Shown here: positions 10,755-32,105 of the stretch, piece by piece
Layout: each line of letters opens with the position of its first letter
How positions within the stretch are numbered: position 1 is the first letter of the stretch
Assembly (NCBI GenBank): GCA_905181875.1
Contig: CAJIZH010000006.1
Location: 124,001 to 188,000, forward strand
Source: Flavobacteriales bacterium UBA6770
Lineage (GTDB): Bacteria; Bacteroidota; Bacteroidia; Flavobacteriales_G; Salibacteraceae
Direction: 5' to 3'
Length of the DNA stretch: 64,000 nt
Position numbers and translations under genes: made by a program
Notes under the pieces: generated by a model
The model's input: only the letters and a program-made list of their open reading frames with translations
Database searches by the model: none
What the model was told of the DNA's origin: nothing

Positions 10755-12542
10755 TTATTCTTTTATCAACCTCATTGCAGCTTTCTTACCTTCCAATTCA
10801 ACCATTAATAAGTATACTCCTGCTGGTTCTTCAATTTTCAGATCCAATATTGAGCTTTCAATGAAGCTCTGCACCTGTATTGTTCTACCACTCAAATCTG
10901 TTAAAGTAACAGTAATTGCCTCGTAGTTTCCTCCCAAATCAATTGTAAAACTGCCATTAGTTGGGTTTGGGTAGACCAAAAACTGATCAGATCTGATAGG
11001 GGTTATAGAACTAGTCGTTGAAGTATCCTTTACACAAGGCGTTATCGTATCCTTTGTGCCCATAAAACAAGGAGTGATACCCTCTTGATACATAAGATTC
11101 CATGCAGTTTCATAGCCAATCTTATGAGCCATCCAACTGCGCCATTGAGCAGAATCCGTTGGCATACTATCGCCTGCTAAGGCACAATCGCTAGATAATA
11201 AAGTGTACATATAAGTGCCTATCGCCTTATTCACATCGTTACTCAAGTGCCAACTGTCACTGTGTATATCTACATCAGGGATTTCTTCTAGCATCTGAGC
11301 GATCAACGTGCGTATGGGAACATTTCTCCCATAAGGTAATTCTGACTTTCTTACCATGTTTAAGGCTACTCCTAAATCTGTTTCCACATCATTTTCGTTT
11401 ACTCGTTTGTCTAGTCCGTAGAGCATTGAAATCTTACCAGTGCTAGCATCATCCTGCAACGGATAGCCAAAAGAATAGTCGTATTTAGAAGGGTCAATAT
11501 TGTACAAATGGGTGGAACCCATACTGGATCTACCGTAGTTAAAGTGTATAGGAGGAGTTGAGCCGAATTGAAGTGTCTTTTGGTCCTCTGCAACTACCCA
11601 ATTCAATCCATCAAGAATTCCATACTCGGTACTTGTTCCTCCATGGTTGTAAATAAGAGTTTGGTCGCTAATTTCACAGCTCTTATATGGAGAAATAAAG
11701 CTTCTTTTGCCTACATAATGCACTTGACTCATCTCAGTAACTTGAGTTGCGTGAGCTATGTCTGCGATTTCGTCATCATAGGAATAATCCGATGAAGAGG
11801 CACTATTGCCATAGATATGAGAGTAAATTGCTGCTGCGGTCAAATAGGCACCATTTGGTGTTGGATGTATGATAGCATTGTCTTTTTTACCTGCTGGAAT
11901 TGCTTTCCAAGAAAGGCCTGCAGGAACAATTGGTAATGGAACTTTAGCTCCATCAGCAGTACGATAGGTGAATTCTTCGAAATGATCTATCATCGTTTCA
12001 TCCTTAGGCCACATCATTAGTAATAGTGGTTTTGCTCCGCCTTCGATAACTTTTGCTGCAATCTTATTGACTCCCAGAGCGTAATAACCAGGTATCGTAG
12101 ATACAATATAAGGATCTGCTCCTATTACTACGAGGTCCCAATCTACACCATTATTCCCTTTCAAGTTACTCATGCGATCTTCGTGCGCATCTGGCCAGTA
12201 ATAGTATTGATTAAGAGAATGACAATAGTAATCTAGGTTTGAAGTAAACTGATCAGCAATACCCGTTGTAACAGTTTTATTTTTATAAATATCTTCTGAT
12301 ACAACATTAACATTGATAGAGATAGAAGTATCCGCTGACAAGATGTTCTTTAATTCCTTTGTGATTTGCTGAGGAGAAAAGGCTTCTGCTCCATCCTTAA
12401 TAGATTTACTGGTACCAATCACCAGGATATCTAAAGTTCCATCCCCATTAATGTCGGGGTTGCAAGGGTCTTGAGCATGTAATAATGATGTACATAATAA
12501 TAAACACGTTAATGCTTTTGTAAAAGTGAGTTTTGATTTCAT
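10755..12542 (-). CDS. T9SS type A secreted protein, SGNH-hydrolase-like
   Basis: Signal peptide; DINGDGTLDILVIGTSKS; DLVVIGADPYI; HPTPNGAYLTAAAI; C-terminal VYPNPTNGSFTIDLGG...GVYLLMVELEGKKAAMRLIK. Confidence 0.78.
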   Translation of the reverse strand: MKSKLTFTKALTCLLLCTSLLHAQDPCNPDINGDGTLDILVIGTSKSIKDGAEAFSPQQITKELKNILSADTSISINVNVVSEDIYKNKTVTTGIADQFTSNLDYYCHSLNQYYYWPDAHEDRMSNLKGNNGVDWDLVVIGADPYIVSTIPGYYALGVNKIAAKVIEGGAKPLLLMMWPKDETMIDHFEEFTYRTADGAKVPLPIVPAGLSWKAIPAGKKDNAIIHPTPNGAYLTAAAIYSHIYGNSASSSDYSYDDEIADIAHATQVTEMSQVHYVGKRSFISPYKSCEISDQTLIYNHGGTSTEYGILDGLNWVVAEDQKTLQFGSTPPIHFNYGRSSMGSTHLYNIDPSKYDYSFGYPLQDDASTGKISMLYGLDKRVNENDVETDLGVALNMVRKSELPYGRNVPIRTLIAQMLEEIPDVDIHSDSWHLSNDVNKAIGTYMYTLLSSDCALAGDSMPTDSAQWRSWMAHKIGYETAWNLMYQEGITPCFMGTKDTITPCVKDTSTTSSITPIRSDQFLVYPNPTNGSFTIDLGGNYEAITVTLTDLSGRTIQVQSFIESSILDLKIEEPAGVYLLMVELEGKKAAMRLIKE

Positions 12543-12954: not shown

Positions 12955-13290
12955 TTAGTAGAGCAGGTGCATTTTAGATTCATCCTTCCATTCTGCCTTA
13001 TAGTCCGAGTCTACAAAAAAGATTTTTAAATCTGCTTTGTAATCTGCGTCTACAAAAAACACCTTCTTTTTTGCTTTGTAATCTGCATCGGTAAAAAACC
13101 ATTTACCGTTGTTATCTCCAGCTTTGTAGTCGGCATTCACTTTATACACCAACAAATCCGCTTTATAATCTGCGTCTACCACAAAAACCTTAACGTCGGC
13201 TTTGTAATCCGAATCTACCGAATAGACTTTCTGTGCCATACTATTGACACTAGTTAAAACTAACACTGTAGCTATAATTAAAGTTTTCAT
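12955..13290 (-). CDS. Six-repeat YxVDxDYKAD protein, 7(1) septoil-knot-like domain, exported
   Basis: YSVDSDYKAD/VFVVDADYKAD/VYKVNADYKAG/WFFTDADYKAK/VFFVDADYKAD/IFFVDSDYKAE after signal peptide MKTLIIATVLVLTSVNSMAQ. ATG at 13290. Confidence 0.85.
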   Translation of the reverse strand: MKTLIIATVLVLTSVNSMAQKVYSVDSDYKADVKVFVVDADYKADLLVYKVNADYKAGDNNGKWFFTDADYKAKKKVFFVDADYKADLKIFFVDSDYKAEWKDESKMHLLY

Positions 13291-13462
13291 TTGTTTCAAA
13301 TTTACACAACTCCGCCAATTACTCATATTGGCACTTTGCGCCGCTAATCACTTGAAGTCGGTAAATAGCTTACTGATCATATCGAAACCTACCTAACTTT
13401 TCCTAATAAGCCTTTATGGAATGCTATAAAGAACTTTTTTAGTTGGTTTTTGTCAATTGATT

Positions 13463-14556: not shown

Positions 14557-15714
14557 TTAATTGTACTTAATAAGTTTAATAATTTGTCCTTCAATATACA
14601 AGTAATACATGCTTGGTGGAAATTGTGATAAGTCGATTTGCTTGTTATCTCCAGTTAGATATCCCGCCAATAAGCGCTGCCCCATAGGTGAAATAATTTC
14701 GTAATGACCATTTCCATGCATTTTTAAATTAACTACACTTTTCGTTGGATTAGGGTAAACCCGAATGACTGAAAGGTCATTATAAATAACATTTTCTTCC
14801 TTCAATAGTGGATTAACTGCACTTGTATCTTTCTTCGTTGTATCCGTTTCTAATAATTCACATTTGAAATCTTGTTCTAGCTTGGATGCAATGAGAGGGC
14901 TTACTAAAAGTGTGTCTGTTAATAGGGGACAATAACAGTCGTTTTTTTCTACATAAAGTTTCAGCCAAGAGAGCGCTACTTTTCCAACATAACCTCCACC
15001 ACCTTTGGGTGTGTTGGCAACAGAGTGATTGCCATTTGCAATTTCGAATAGTATTTTGTCAGTCGTATTTGGTGTTTGGTTATAATGAATATCTGCATGT
15101 TGCACAGGAGGAGCAGTAGGATCATTTTCTCCACTAAAAATAAGCACAGGACTTTGATGATTGAGCTGGGGATTAGGGAGCCATGGACACAATGCCACAA
15201 CACCAGCAATAGTGGTGTCAAGTACAGCGGCCCTCTGAGCGCCGCCGCCGCCCATAGACCAACCACTTACGGCCAATTGATTCAGGTTAAGTGCTCCATT
15301 AAGCGGAGATAATATTCTAAAATTTTCTTGTTTTATGGTTTCTAAGGCATCCAACAACGCTAAAGCGCGTATTTCCGGAAGATCAAAAGGAGAATTTGTG
15401 CCTATAATAATGGTAACAATTCCGTGAGAAGCATAAAATGGGCCCCATTCTTGAACACTTGAAGGAAGCGCAGTAAATCCAGGTATAATTGCAATACTAG
15501 CGAACGGCGGATTTCCACTTGTAGGGTAGTAGATAGTCGCTCCTAAATAATCAGGACCATTCCTTATTCCATCTGCCTCGGTGAGCGTGGCAACTATAAA
15601 AGCTCCAGGATTAGCAAGACTCTCTATGGTTATGCCATTACATTGGGCTTTAACAATATTGGTAAATAGGGGAGAGATAATAGCAAATAATATTAAAAGG
15701 TAATTTTTTTTCAT
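14557..15714 (-). CDS. PETase/cutinase-like polyester hydrolase (alpha/beta hydrolase) with T9SS type A sorting domain
   Basis: IIPGFTALPSSVQEWGPFYASHG, VSGWSMGGGGAQRAA, ALCPWLP, IFSGENDPTAP, NGNHSVANTP; C-terminal VYPNPTKSVVNL...YYLYIEGQIIKLIKY. Confidence 0.9.
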   Translation of the reverse strand: MKKNYLLILFAIISPLFTNIVKAQCNGITIESLANPGAFIVATLTEADGIRNGPDYLGATIYYPTSGNPPFASIAIIPGFTALPSSVQEWGPFYASHGIVTIIIGTNSPFDLPEIRALALLDALETIKQENFRILSPLNGALNLNQLAVSGWSMGGGGAQRAAVLDTTIAGVVALCPWLPNPQLNHQSPVLIFSGENDPTAPPVQHADIHYNQTPNTTDKILFEIANGNHSVANTPKGGGGYVGKVALSWLKLYVEKNDCYCPLLTDTLLVSPLIASKLEQDFKCELLETDTTKKDTSAVNPLLKEENVIYNDLSVIRVYPNPTKSVVNLKMHGNGHYEIISPMGQRLLAGYLTGDNKQIDLSQFPPSMYYLYIEGQIIKLIKYN

Positions 15715-16452: not shown

Positions 16453-17070
16453 CTAAAAATTATAACCGAAATGCAGTCCTGGTTCTGCGATAAAATAGTT
16501 GAGCCATCGGTTATTCAGTTTTTCAAATGTATCGGGCATTTTAGATTGAATAGGGCGGTGGGTTATCGCAATAGAAGGCTCAATAAAAAATCGGTTTTTG
16601 AATAGCTTAAACTGATACCCCAATCGGTAGGTATTGAACATTTGATAGCCGGTCGAAATCTTGTCGCCGTTGTCGTTAAAGAAGCTTTGATGCGCATTCA
16701 TAACGTGTATCGCCGTGTAAAGTCCTTTGTATAAAAAACGCTGGTAGGCCAAAGCAAATCCAAACTCTCTAATGTATCCCGGAAATTTTTCTGCGGGTGC
16801 TTCAAAGGAATCACCGTAAGGTATGCCCAGCGACCATGCGTATTTCCACGTTTTTAATTCAATCGATACTACGTCCTTTGGTGTTATCCGGTATCCGAGA
16901 TTCAGTTGCACAAAATCGGGTTTGTTTTCAGCCGCAAAATTACCCAACATAAAAAACGTACTTCCTACAAAAAACTTTTTGTAGGTAGAGTCTTGCTGAG
17001 TAGATTGACCATTCAAATTGATCCCCGAAAAGCAAAGGATGATTATAAAAAATAGCGTTTGTTTTAACAT
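16453..17070 (-). CDS. Hypothetical outer-membrane protein
   Basis: Signal peptide MLKQTLFFIIILCFSGINLNGQ; beta-rich sequence ending in GLHFGYNF. Confidence 0.65.
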   Translation of the reverse strand: MLKQTLFFIIILCFSGINLNGQSTQQDSTYKKFFVGSTFFMLGNFAAENKPDFVQLNLGYRITPKDVVSIELKTWKYAWSLGIPYGDSFEAPAEKFPGYIREFGFALAYQRFLYKGLYTAIHVMNAHQSFFNDNGDKISTGYQMFNTYRLGYQFKLFKNRFFIEPSIAITHRPIQSKMPDTFEKLNNRWLNYFIAEPGLHFGYNF

Positions 17071-17184
17071 AGTTGTTGAACCGTTTTAGTGAAAAGGCAA
17101 AACTACTGTGCTGTGTTAATTCAAATGATTCACTTAAGGTAAGAAAGTTGGCTTATTATGTTTTAAAAGCCGCTTTTCGTGCTG

Positions 17185-17757
17185 TTAACTTTTAACCAGT
17201 CGCTTTCGCAAGCGACTAAGGGACTGAGGGGTTATTCCTAAGTAACTCGCTATTTGATATTGCGGTATGCGTTGCAGCAAGTCTGGTCGTGTTTCTTGTA
17301 AGTCCAAGTAACGTTTTTCTGGCGAGGAGGTTCTGAATTTATCGAAGTCAGATTTGCTTTTTACCAATTGTTCTTCCGTCAAAACTCTGCACAGGGTTTC
17401 AAATTTTGGAAACTTTTCGAAGATCGTCATTTCCATTTCAGAATTGGCTACCATAAGAATGGAGTCCTCCATACAAGAAACAACATACTTCGAAGGTTTT
17501 TTGTCAATTTTACATTGAGGTTCAAAGGATTCCGCCTCGGTATAAAAGGCCGTTGTTTTTTCATCGCCATCAATTACATAATAGCTTCGTAAGCAGCCTT
17601 TAATTACAAAATAACCGTAATCGGTATGTGCGTCTTCTTCAAGGAGTATAGTTCCTTTTTTGTATTGTTTAAAAGTGTCTAAATCAGTAATTGCTTGCTT
17701 TTCGGTATCCGATAAGTCGATGTATTTAGCGAGGTAGTCAAAAAGTATATGCTCCAT
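17185..17757 (-). CDS. Crp/Fnr-family transcriptional regulator
   Basis: cNMP-binding-like domain (YKKGTILLEEDAHTDYGYFVIKGCLRSYY) and C-terminal HTH IASYLGITPQSLSRLRKRL. Confidence 0.88.
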   Translation of the reverse strand: MEHILFDYLAKYIDLSDTEKQAITDLDTFKQYKKGTILLEEDAHTDYGYFVIKGCLRSYYVIDGDEKTTAFYTEAESFEPQCKIDKKPSKYVVSCMEDSILMVANSEMEMTIFEKFPKFETLCRVLTEEQLVKSKSDFDKFRTSSPEKRYLDLQETRPDLLQRIPQYQIASYLGITPQSLSRLRKRLVKS

Positions 17758-17971: not shown

Positions 17972-18541
17972 ATGCACACAATTGAACCTTATTACCGTTG
18001 GCGAGAGCTTTATTTAGCAGAGGAAGATGAACGTTCACCTTTTTACGGAAAGGAGTATTCTGAGTTTTACTTTAGCGATACCATTTACGATCATGTTATT
18101 CATCCTCAATGGGATAACATAGGTTCGGAGACACTTTTTCTGAAGCTTATTTATGCCGATTATGACGAAAAATTTGCGATAATCGAACTCATGGGCGAGT
18201 GGAACGATACGCTTCATAATGACATTCAGGCTTTAAAACGAAATATAATCGATCATTTGGTCGACGAAGGAATCAACCGTTTTATACTAATTGGCGAAAA
18301 CGTGCTTAACTTTCACCCTTCAGACGACTCCTACTACGAAGAATGGTTTGAAGACATTGAAGAAGGTTGGATTGCCACCTTGAATTTTAGACAGCATGTG
18401 CTGGAAGATTTTGGTCAAGAAAATATCGACCAGTATTTTGTTACGGGTGGAAAACTGGACGATCTTGTTTGGAGAACCCGATCGCCGAATGAACTGTTTT
18501 TATTGATTGATAATTTAGTCACAAAACGATTGAGCATATGA
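17972..18541 (+). CDS. Conserved hypothetical protein
   Basis: 189 aa ORF; 4-nt ATGA overlap with the downstream ORF; a decayed partial copy lies at 15912. Confidence 0.75.
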   Translation: MHTIEPYYRWRELYLAEEDERSPFYGKEYSEFYFSDTIYDHVIHPQWDNIGSETLFLKLIYADYDEKFAIIELMGEWNDTLHNDIQALKRNIIDHLVDEGINRFILIGENVLNFHPSDDSYYEEWFEDIEEGWIATLNFRQHVLEDFGQENIDQYFVTGGKLDDLVWRTRSPNELFLLIDNLVTKRLSI

Positions 18542-28671: not shown

Positions 28672-28727
28672 AATATTTGATTATTCTAAATAATGCCTTT
28701 ATTTTGGCGCTGCAGAAAGATAAGCTT

Positions 28728-31043
28728 ATGAAATTATTTCTAGAAAGTATTATTACCGCTCTTGTCGTACTGTTGTTGTCATGCTTTACTGTGGAGGTTA
28801 ATGCCCAACAAGTTTTGTTGACAGACGATTTCAGCGTAGGACAGGGCAATTGGACACTCAATACTTCTGACCAAGTTAATGGTGGTTTTGCAGCAGGTGG
28901 TGGAGCAGAAAACTTGTGGGTTGTAAACAACATTTATGCAGGAAGTCAGACTGCCTTCGTTCAGCCAACGCAAAATCAGCCTGCCGGGATTCCTGGAGCA
29001 CCAAATTCGGGATACCTGCACATAGTATCACGAAATTTTTCTGCAGCAGCAGTATTAAACTGTAATTATCAGTATCAACAAAAAGTTGGAAATGAGATGT
29101 ATATGGCCAGAATGGCCAGTCCGATAAATACCACTGGTCTTAAAGATATAGAATTAAAATTTTGGTGGTTAAACTACTCTGAAGGTCCAATTTCTACTGG
29201 TAGTGCAGCTTCTGGACAAGTAGTTTACAGTACAGATGGCGGTACAACGTGGGTTCCTACAGGATTTGAAATGGCCAATGATTCAACGTGGGGTGACACG
29301 ACTTTATCACTTATATCGTTCAACAATCAAGCTACACTGAGCTTTGGTTTTCTTTTTGTAAATCCTGATACTGGAGTGGTTCCAGTCAACCGATCTGCTT
29401 TTGCAATTGATGATGTTTCCATAACAGGAGTGCCTTCTGGAACTCCAAACTCTGATTTTACTGCAAATCCAACATTGGTTTGTAAAGGTGACTGTGTTCA
29501 GTTTACCGATATTTCTACAGGAAATCCTACACAATGGAAGTGGACTTTTGGAACAGGTGGTTTAGCAGATACTTCAAATCTTCAAAATCCTAGTTTTTGT
29601 TTTCCTTCAGTAGGAACATTTTCAATTGCACTTAGGGGATCTAATTCGGCAGGTTCGGGGCTAACCACAACCAAAACTAATTACATTCAAGTGGTCGATT
29701 GTAATTCACCCCCAGATGCAAACTTTAGCATGAATGGTTCAAAATCGGGTAACATTACAATTTGTGCTGGAGATTCAATTGCGTTTAGAGATTCGAGTAC
29801 AGGTGTCATAAACACAAGATATTGGTCTTTTCCTGGTGCTCAAGATGATTCTGGAAGATGTAGGTTGAAAAATGACACTAATAAAACTGTTGGTGTGTTT
29901 TATCCATGTGCAGGTGATGGAGGTAGAGACACTTCTTACACAGCTACGTTTAATGTTTCAGGTACTGGTGGTGCTGATTTCATTACCAAAACAATTATTG
30001 TGAAAGGTTGTGTTCCTGCAAAAGCTAAAATCAAAGGGGAAAGTCAACGAAAAATTTGCGCTGAGCAATGTATTACACTCCGTTTTGACAGATCTGTAGA
30101 AGATGAGTTTTTTACTACAACGGATTCTATTGTTTGGATAATGGAAGGAATTAGAACTGATCTTTGGGATTCAAAATATTATTATTCAAATTACGGAATT
30201 AAAGCAGGAGATCCAAAATTAACTGATCCAAGCTTTGTCGACACACTATTTACAGGAGATACAGTGCGAGTTTGTTATGAAGACAGCATAGAAAATTGGA
30301 GTATTGGGATGTTAGCGTATAATGTATATGGTAAGGATTCAGTGGTATATGATGATATTATTTCAGTGATGCGTTATCCGATTGTAAATACAATTTATGA
30401 AGATTCAGCAATTGTTAGAGGACATCGAGGTTTTTTGAGCACCAAATTGGAGGGTAAAGGAGAGCGCAATTACTGCCGAAATTTAAGAGATGTTGAAAAA
30501 TTAAGAGGAGATACCAGCAGTTGTTTTAATTACTATTGGTCCTATTTAGATGAAAATGGGAAATATGTAAGAGAGGACATTGAACAATGGAACGAACGTT
30601 CAACTTTTTCTGAGCCCACCAAAGATACTTATTATTATGTAATCAAAGAGAATTATAACGGCTGTAGAGTAGTAGATTCGCTTCAAATTATTTTGAGAAA
30701 AGATGCAGCAGGTGTTCAATATTCAGTTGGTGTCCCTAGCATTTTCTCACCAGGAAGCGGAAGGTATACGAACAAGAATTTTTATGTTTTCGGAAATGGA
30801 ATCACCAAGATTAATGTGCAAATATTTAATCGTTTTGGCCAGGTGGTGTTCAGTTCGGAAAGTGTTGAGGATATTGTGATTGAAGATCCAAGTAATCAAG
30901 GTGCCAAAACGGGATGGAGAGGAACTTTTCAGAATGAATCGGGAAGGGACTTAACTCCTGGAGTTTATACCTACTTTATTCAAGTTACCCATGAAAATGG
31001 TGATTTTAAAGAATTACAAGGAAATGTTACTTTGGTGCGCTAA
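28728..31043 (+). CDS. PKD-domain protein with T9SS type B / gliding-motility-associated C-terminal domain
   Basis: PKD motif PTQWKWTFGTGGLADTSNLQNPSFCFPSVGTFSIALR; C-terminal INVQIFNRFGQVVF...TGWRGTFQNESGRDLTPGVYTYFIQVTHENGDFKELQGNVTLVR. Confidence 0.87.
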   Translation: MKLFLESIITALVVLLLSCFTVEVNAQQVLLTDDFSVGQGNWTLNTSDQVNGGFAAGGGAENLWVVNNIYAGSQTAFVQPTQNQPAGIPGAPNSGYLHIVSRNFSAAAVLNCNYQYQQKVGNEMYMARMASPINTTGLKDIELKFWWLNYSEGPISTGSAASGQVVYSTDGGTTWVPTGFEMANDSTWGDTTLSLISFNNQATLSFGFLFVNPDTGVVPVNRSAFAIDDVSITGVPSGTPNSDFTANPTLVCKGDCVQFTDISTGNPTQWKWTFGTGGLADTSNLQNPSFCFPSVGTFSIALRGSNSAGSGLTTTKTNYIQVVDCNSPPDANFSMNGSKSGNITICAGDSIAFRDSSTGVINTRYWSFPGAQDDSGRCRLKNDTNKTVGVFYPCAGDGGRDTSYTATFNVSGTGGADFITKTIIVKGCVPAKAKIKGESQRKICAEQCITLRFDRSVEDEFFTTTDSIVWIMEGIRTDLWDSKYYYSNYGIKAGDPKLTDPSFVDTLFTGDTVRVCYEDSIENWSIGMLAYNVYGKDSVVYDDIISVMRYPIVNTIYEDSAIVRGHRGFLSTKLEGKGERNYCRNLRDVEKLRGDTSSCFNYYWSYLDENGKYVREDIEQWNERSTFSEPTKDTYYYVIKENYNGCRVVDSLQIILRKDAAGVQYSVGVPSIFSPGSGRYTNKNFYVFGNGITKINVQIFNRFGQVVFSSESVEDIVIEDPSNQGAKTGWRGTFQNESGRDLTPGVYTYFIQVTHENGDFKELQGNVTLVR

Positions 31044-32105
31044 ATGAAACAATTAATGAAGAGATTATTCCTATTGCTTTCGGTAATTAGTATTTGTCTT
31101 GCTGGAGAGGCTCAAGAAGATGTGCATTTTTCTCAATTTTTTAATGCTTCACCAATATTAAACCCAGCAACATCGGGTATCTTTCATGGTAACTTGCGTT
31201 TCAATTCTCACTACCGCCAACAATGGGGCTCCATTTCGAGTCAGCCATATACCACAATGGCAGCTTCACTAGATTTACCGGTTTTAACAGATGTTACAGG
31301 TCATGATATGTTCGCAATTGGCGTATACGGAATTAAAGATGACGCAGGAATATCTCAAACAAGCACAACTAACGTTGGTTTGAACGTAAATTTCGGTAAA
31401 GCTTTTGATCCTAGTGAAACTCATTTTTTTAGCCTAGGAATGAAAGTGAATTATGGTCAAAAAGCATTGAGTTACGACGGACAATGGGGAAGTCAATGGA
31501 ATTGGCAATTGGCTACACCTGATTTTGATGTTACTGTCCCAGGAGAATATGCTGGTGAAGCAAGTGCTACATATGTTGCTGTTGGTGCTGGTTTCAATTG
31601 GTTCTATACCAATCACGATAACATAAGAGCGAATTTAGGAAGTGCTATAAACAACATTAATGGTCCTAGTGTCAATTACTTGAATAGAGATTATAGTCTG
31701 GCTAGATCACTTTATTTTCACGGAGATATTGAAATACACTCACACGCAGACAATTTTGCTGTAATACCGCGAACAATAATATTCACACAGGGCAGACAGC
31801 GTTATTTTGTTCTTGGTACTGCTTTCGATTTTGTGTTCAAGGAAGCTGGATTACATACTGGAATTACCAAAGAAATGACAATGGAATTTGGAGCTTACTT
31901 TAGATGGAAAGATGCGTTCATATTCCAAACTCAATTTAATTGGGCTGGAATGGGCGTAGGACTTAGCTATGATGTTAATATTTCTAAGCTGAATGGTGCG
32001 AGTAGAAACCTAGGTGGTTTTGAAGCATTCTTAAGTTATAAACTGGGATACAAACGTGGATTGAAAGATGGACACTCAAACGACCGTTTCGATAGTATTC
32101 ACTAA
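31044..32105 (+). CDS. PorP/SprF-family T9SS outer-membrane protein
   Basis: EDVHFSQFFNASPILNPATSGIFHGNLRFNSHYRQQWGSI signature; ATG immediately follows the T9SS type B gene stop. Confidence 0.93.
   Translation: MKQLMKRLFLLLSVISICLAGEAQEDVHFSQFFNASPILNPATSGIFHGNLRFNSHYRQQWGSISSQPYTTMAASLDLPVLTDVTGHDMFAIGVYGIKDDAGISQTSTTNVGLNVNFGKAFDPSETHFFSLGMKVNYGQKALSYDGQWGSQWNWQLATPDFDVTVPGEYAGEASATYVAVGAGFNWFYTNHDNIRANLGSAINNINGPSVNYLNRDYSLARSLYFHGDIEIHSHADNFAVIPRTIIFTQGRQRYFVLGTAFDFVFKEAGLHTGITKEMTMEFGAYFRWKDAFIFQTQFNWAGMGVGLSYDVNISKLNGASRNLGGFEAFLSYKLGYKRGLKDGHSNDRFDSIH

Follow-up and report, generated by a model that had tools for sequence, protein, structure and literature searches.

A PETase-like esterase of the PET27/PET30 type with a type IX secretion tail in a genome of the Flavobacteriales

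PET-active esterases with a Por domain have already been described in Bacteroidota, as the sequence-only reading of this locus had stated, the known examples being PET27 and PET30 (Zhang et al. 2022, PMC8767016). They possess one disulfide, C262-C285, and a PorC tail, with the binding motif Phe-Met-Trp in PET27 and Phe-Met-Tyr in PET30, and in both of them the Cys pair specific to IsPETase is replaced by G195/V232 (PMC8767016). According to a review published in 2024, their long loop and Trp-Ser are those of type IIb, while the extra disulfide is absent, a trait of type I (PMC11219463). PET30 hydrolyses PET foil and PET27 is more active, while PET28 and PET29, which exhibit the F-M-W motif, a single disulfide and the PorC tail, hydrolyse PCL and BHET with PET activity that was not measurable, so that PET activity does not follow from such motifs (PMC8767016). 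The pocket moreover depends on its context, because the F80Y and Y178W variants of PET30 lost their BHET/PET activity (PMC8767016).

The DNA analysed here (the window) is a stretch of 64,000 nucleotides from Flavobacteriales bacterium UBA6770, in which a PETase-like gene occupies positions 14557..15714 of the minus strand; all its features given below lie on that strand. The open reading frame is real and intact, encoding 385 aa from an ATG start with no internal stop. Its best Pfam family is PETase (PF12740), which covers residues 35-264 (14923..15612) with 165 bits against a cut-off of 28 (E 2.5e-48), and the best sequence match in the PDB is PET30 (7pzj), aligned over residues 1-383 and gap-free in the catalytic domain, with an E-value of 1.1e-148 that excludes chance similarity by far. 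Residues 1-23 (15646..15714), read by eye, are predicted to form an N-terminal Sec signal peptide cleaved between A23 and Q24 (MKKNYLLILFAIISPLFTNIVKA followed by QC), the same place as published for PET27-PET30 (PMC8767016). The fused type IX secretion system (T9SS) type A sorting domain that had been suggested at the C-terminus was recovered at residues 319-382 (14569..14760), where TIGR04183 scored 26.4 bits against a cut-off of 23 and Por_Secre_tail (PF18962, residues 319-377) 27.3 bits against 27. The same genome encodes SprA, the outer-membrane channel of the T9SS (SprA/Sov; TIGR04189, 2363 bits), and the comparison of the gene with its 98% identical homologue (dN 0.012, dS 0.078, ratio 0.15) reveals purifying selection.

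The active site was compared with those of IsPETase and LCC in a MAFFT alignment, with the IsPETase letters verified on PDB 6qgc/6eqd and those of LCC on PDB 4eb0. Every sequence block quoted in the sequence-only reading is present in the protein, and one small slip concerned an IsPETase block quoted as VVPGYTAR, whose correct letters are IVPGYTAR. The triad comprises the nucleophile Ser153 in a G-W-S-M-G motif (15256..15258), Asp198 (15121..15123; IsPETase D206) and His230 (15025..15027; IsPETase H237). Trp152 (15259-15261) precedes the nucleophile directly and corresponds to W159 of IsPETase, Met154 (15253-15255) follows it, and the Ser after the catalytic His is kept as Ser231 (S238). The two Cys residues of the extra disulfide, C203 and C239 in IsPETase, are indeed Gly195 and Val232, and the aromatic residue of the oxyanion hole and clamp is Phe80 (15475..15477) at the position of Y87. 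Together with the other clamp aromatic, Trp178 (15181..15183; IsPETase W185, Tyr in PET30), these residues make up the binding motif Phe-Met-Trp (F80-M154-W178). The loop is of IsPETase length, as had been stated: HSVANTPKGGGGYVGK has 16 residues, likewise HSCANSGNSNQALIGK of IsPETase, and that of LCC is shorter. His206 does occupy the S214 position, but it had been taken for a cutinase feature, of which it is not diagnostic, because Ple629, Ple628, BurPL and PET44 share the His. Cys262 (14929-14931) and Cys285 (14860-14862), spanning 14860..14931 and equivalent to the single disulfide of PET30 (7PZJ; PMC8767016), are kept in all 20 members of the Bacteroidota clade in the alignment. In terms of the published types, the protein thus has W152, S231 and the 16-residue long beta8-alpha6 loop of type IIb, lacks the second disulfide of IsPETase beside the active site (G195/V232), and shows neither the His before Ser, nor the Phe after the catalytic His, nor the short loop of type I cutinases.

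Structure prediction with AlphaFold, which had been proposed as a check, gave weak models from shallow alignments. The full-length model, built with 15 close homologues, had a pLDDT of 41 and was not used; the core-only model reached a pLDDT of 53 and a pTM of 0.62. The best Foldseek match of the core model was again 7pzj (E 2.8e-26, TM 0.68), and the others among the 50 matches listed were solely PETases, cutinases and related polyester hydrolases, but at such low model confidence the core model lends weak support and adds little beyond the sequence match.

A maximum-likelihood tree of 28 rows, calculated with the trait columns left out, separates the Bacteroidota clade with Por tails from IsPETase, LCC, Ple629, BurPL and others with support of 100/100, and the protein of the window falls inside that clade, where the proteins of two genomes from the same family join it at 100/98. 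Its proposed status as a new member of the Bacteroidota family of PET esterases is upheld by this position and by PET30 as the best PDB match. A family scan with one genome per species identified 17 loci, 60-98% identical and without exception from Bacteroidota: the carriers are Psychroflexus gondwanensis, Dokdonia sinensis, Altibacter, Brumimicrobium glaciale, Aequorivita capsosiphonis and Kaistella jeonii, as well as metagenome-assembled genomes (MAGs) of Polaribacter, Ulvibacter and Eudoraea, and the 98% identical relative comes from a MAG of an uncultured member of the Flavobacteriales. Most carrier lineages are marine or from cold water. The gene is present in four of the 42 genomes of its own order, and within its genus two near-complete genomes lack it; it is uncommon, since in samples drawn evenly across the class and the phylum no genome outside its own family carried it at the cut-offs used. 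The distribution of the gene is patchy, by transfer or loss. A search of viral contigs found no relative of the protein, and among plasmid records the only matches were the Piscinibacter PETase and actinobacterial cutinase-like proteins, 28-36% identical.

The gene is solitary, and the adjacent genes are unrelated. No conserved operon was found, as no neighbour family occurs in more than two of the homologue loci, the neighbourhood shows no sign of a polyester pathway, and a scan for consensus sigma-70 promoters and terminators gave no more matches than expected by chance. In a sister genome (G002) the upstream block is collinear from position 17972 on, and the two genes at 16453-17757 are missing from that place. 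These encode a predicted exported protein of 205 aa and a Crp-like cNMP-binding regulator, located between the PETase-like gene and the collinear block; in another genome of the same genus (G003) the pair lies side by side, at 66% and 58% identity, with the PETase-like gene absent. The pair looks mobile or often lost, because it is missing from its place in the former genome and stands together in the latter without the PETase-like gene. Elsewhere in the window, a PKD/CHU_C protein with a type IX secretion signal domain is followed directly by a PorP/SprF gene (28677-32105), the usual type B cargo pair, so that type A and type B cargo share one window. Near the PETase-like gene, the minus strand also encodes a second putative exported protein, 595 aa long, in which a T9SS type A tail but no catalytic domain was recognised (10755-12542), and a DUF6150 protein composed of repeats like 'VFFVDADYKAD' (12955-13326).

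We are confident that the protein is a secreted esterase of the alpha/beta-hydrolase fold belonging to the PET27/PET30 family of cold and marine Bacteroidota, which would be exported by the T9SS and act on a broad range of ester substrates. The fold family, the triad, the tail, the clade membership, the purifying selection and the SprA gene of the genome, all read from sequence, argue for this; export by Sec and T9SS, Ser-acyl chemistry, the natural substrate and any PET activity are what we infer beyond them. A Sec signal peptide would direct the protein across the inner membrane, and the type IX system, reading the type A C-terminal domain, across the outer one; the protein would then remain anchored at the cell surface or be released. 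There it would cleave esters in an open, lid-less site by the usual mechanism, in which Ser153 would attack the ester, His230 and Asp198 would relay the proton, and the acyl-enzyme would then be hydrolysed, with Phe80 and Trp178 probably clamping a flat or hydrophobic substrate. As natural substrate we regard a lipid or a polyester-like ester of plants or algae as most likely; hydrolysis of PET, PCL and BHET would be slow and promiscuous.

A sub-case of this explanation, whose probability overlaps with that of the whole, is that the protein, with family and mechanism unchanged, is a lipase or a general esterase that acts on natural esters and, like PET28 and PET29, has no measurable PET activity. 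We consider this a serious possibility, if somewhat short of an even chance: those two enzymes share its motifs (PMC8767016), and a search of the genome gave no match to the Tannase family (MHETase-like), although control genomes gave none either. On the other hand, PET30, the closest structurally solved enzyme, belongs to the same clade and is active on PET foil, and W178 is shared with the more active PET27. The PET activity of the enzyme is not predictable from its sequence.

Very improbable is the reading of the protein as a depolymerase truly evolved for PET, whose active site would stand midway between those of IsPETase and the type I cutinases, although Trp152, Ser231 and the long loop recall the former and His206 and the missing second disulfide recall type I enzymes. 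The sequence-only reading had stressed such a mixed character, which is not supported: the identical pattern is published for PET27 and PET30 (PMC8767016, PMC11219463) and is therefore the normal state of their family, found in most of the 20 clade members, and the tree does not place the protein between the two types. At 33% identity to IsPETase and 37% to LCC, it is no nearer to the former than to the latter, and its clade is split from both with full support. The score against the NCBIfam equivalog of bis(hydroxyethyl) terephthalate hydrolase, 129.8 bits, does not reach the cut-off of 520, and members of the clade occur in many genera, unlike what a recent plastic-driven origin would be expected to produce. 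The active site is thus not new. Finally, the idea that the protein is an unrelated dienelactone hydrolase with a superficial likeness to PETases has practically no chance, despite the common alpha/beta-hydrolase superfamily and some relatives named 'DLH domain' in the PDB: it is refuted by the Pfam match to PETase, with no dienelactone hydrolase family among the matches, by the PDB match to PET30 and by the tree, which groups the protein with PET30, and the nucleophile is Ser, not Cys.

Within the PET27/PET30 clade, the residues of subsite II and of the clamp vary naturally. The position of W185 is occupied by Trp, Tyr or Phe, that of Y87 by Tyr in one member (L036), and four members (L037, L038, L047 and L049) carry His directly before the nucleophile. 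The homologue of Flavobacteriaceae bacterium ASP10-09a (L038:4529-5626) combines His at residue 152 (CAC, L038:4982-4984) with Phe at residue 231 (TTC, L038:5219-5221); this single MAG sequence would be the natural equivalent of the disputed IsPETase double mutant W159H/S238F (PMC11219463), in a long-loop scaffold, and L037, L047 and L049 have His152 without Phe231. His152 might have arisen repeatedly, with three changes on the trees, but a single clade of the four members is compatible with the data (AU p 0.30), and convergence is not claimed. In the parts of the open-licence literature covered by our search, no report of the clade's Trp/His and Ser/Phe variation was found. As a wider and tentative reading, which we rate as possible but rather doubtful, the clade could be regarded as a set of natural variants switched at subsite II (Trp/His, Ser/Phe) and at the clamp (Trp/Tyr/Phe at W185, Phe/Tyr at Y87) on one conserved scaffold, including one W159H/S238F equivalent, with the enzyme of the window as one well-placed member and a marine polyester or lipid as its natural substrate. 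The family offers natural variants at residues disputed in IsPETase engineering (W159, S238, W185), and their effects are therefore testable without designed mutants.

Among the known enzymes, PET93 and PET94 of Maribacter and Arenibacter resemble the protein in being secreted S-D-H enzymes of marine Bacteroidota, but lack the PorC tail and lie outside the PET27/PET30 subcluster (PMC13188925). The type I cutinase LCC shares the triad, the Met, the Trp clamp and the His at the S214 position, and differs in its His before Ser, its Phe after the catalytic His and its shorter loop. IsPETase of Ideonella sakaiensis (type IIb) shares the triad, the Trp before Ser, the Ser after His, the loop length and the equivalent of W185, whereas the protein of the window lacks the second disulfide, has Phe for Y87 and His for S214, bears a T9SS tail and belongs to another clade. 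PET27 of Aequorivita sp., compared by its published table (PMC8767016), has the same Phe-Met-Trp motif including Trp178, one disulfide and the PorC tail, and its congener Aequorivita capsosiphonis has a homologue, used as a stand-in, that is 75% identical in the core. PET30 of Kaistella jeonii, whose identity of 60% overall rises to 70% in the catalytic core, has the same order of signal peptide, catalytic domain and PorC tail, the 16-residue loop and the same residue numbering, with F80, W152, M154, T200, G195, H230, V232 and C262-C285 coinciding by number; the protein of the window differs in W178 instead of Tyr178, the main pocket difference among the listed binding residues, and in a linker to the tail that is longer (about 20 residues). 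The single gene by itself alters no established view and enlarges by one the small family of cold-active polyester esterases of Bacteroidota: it is an ordinary new member of the described marine PET27/PET30 type, some of which are slowly active on PET.
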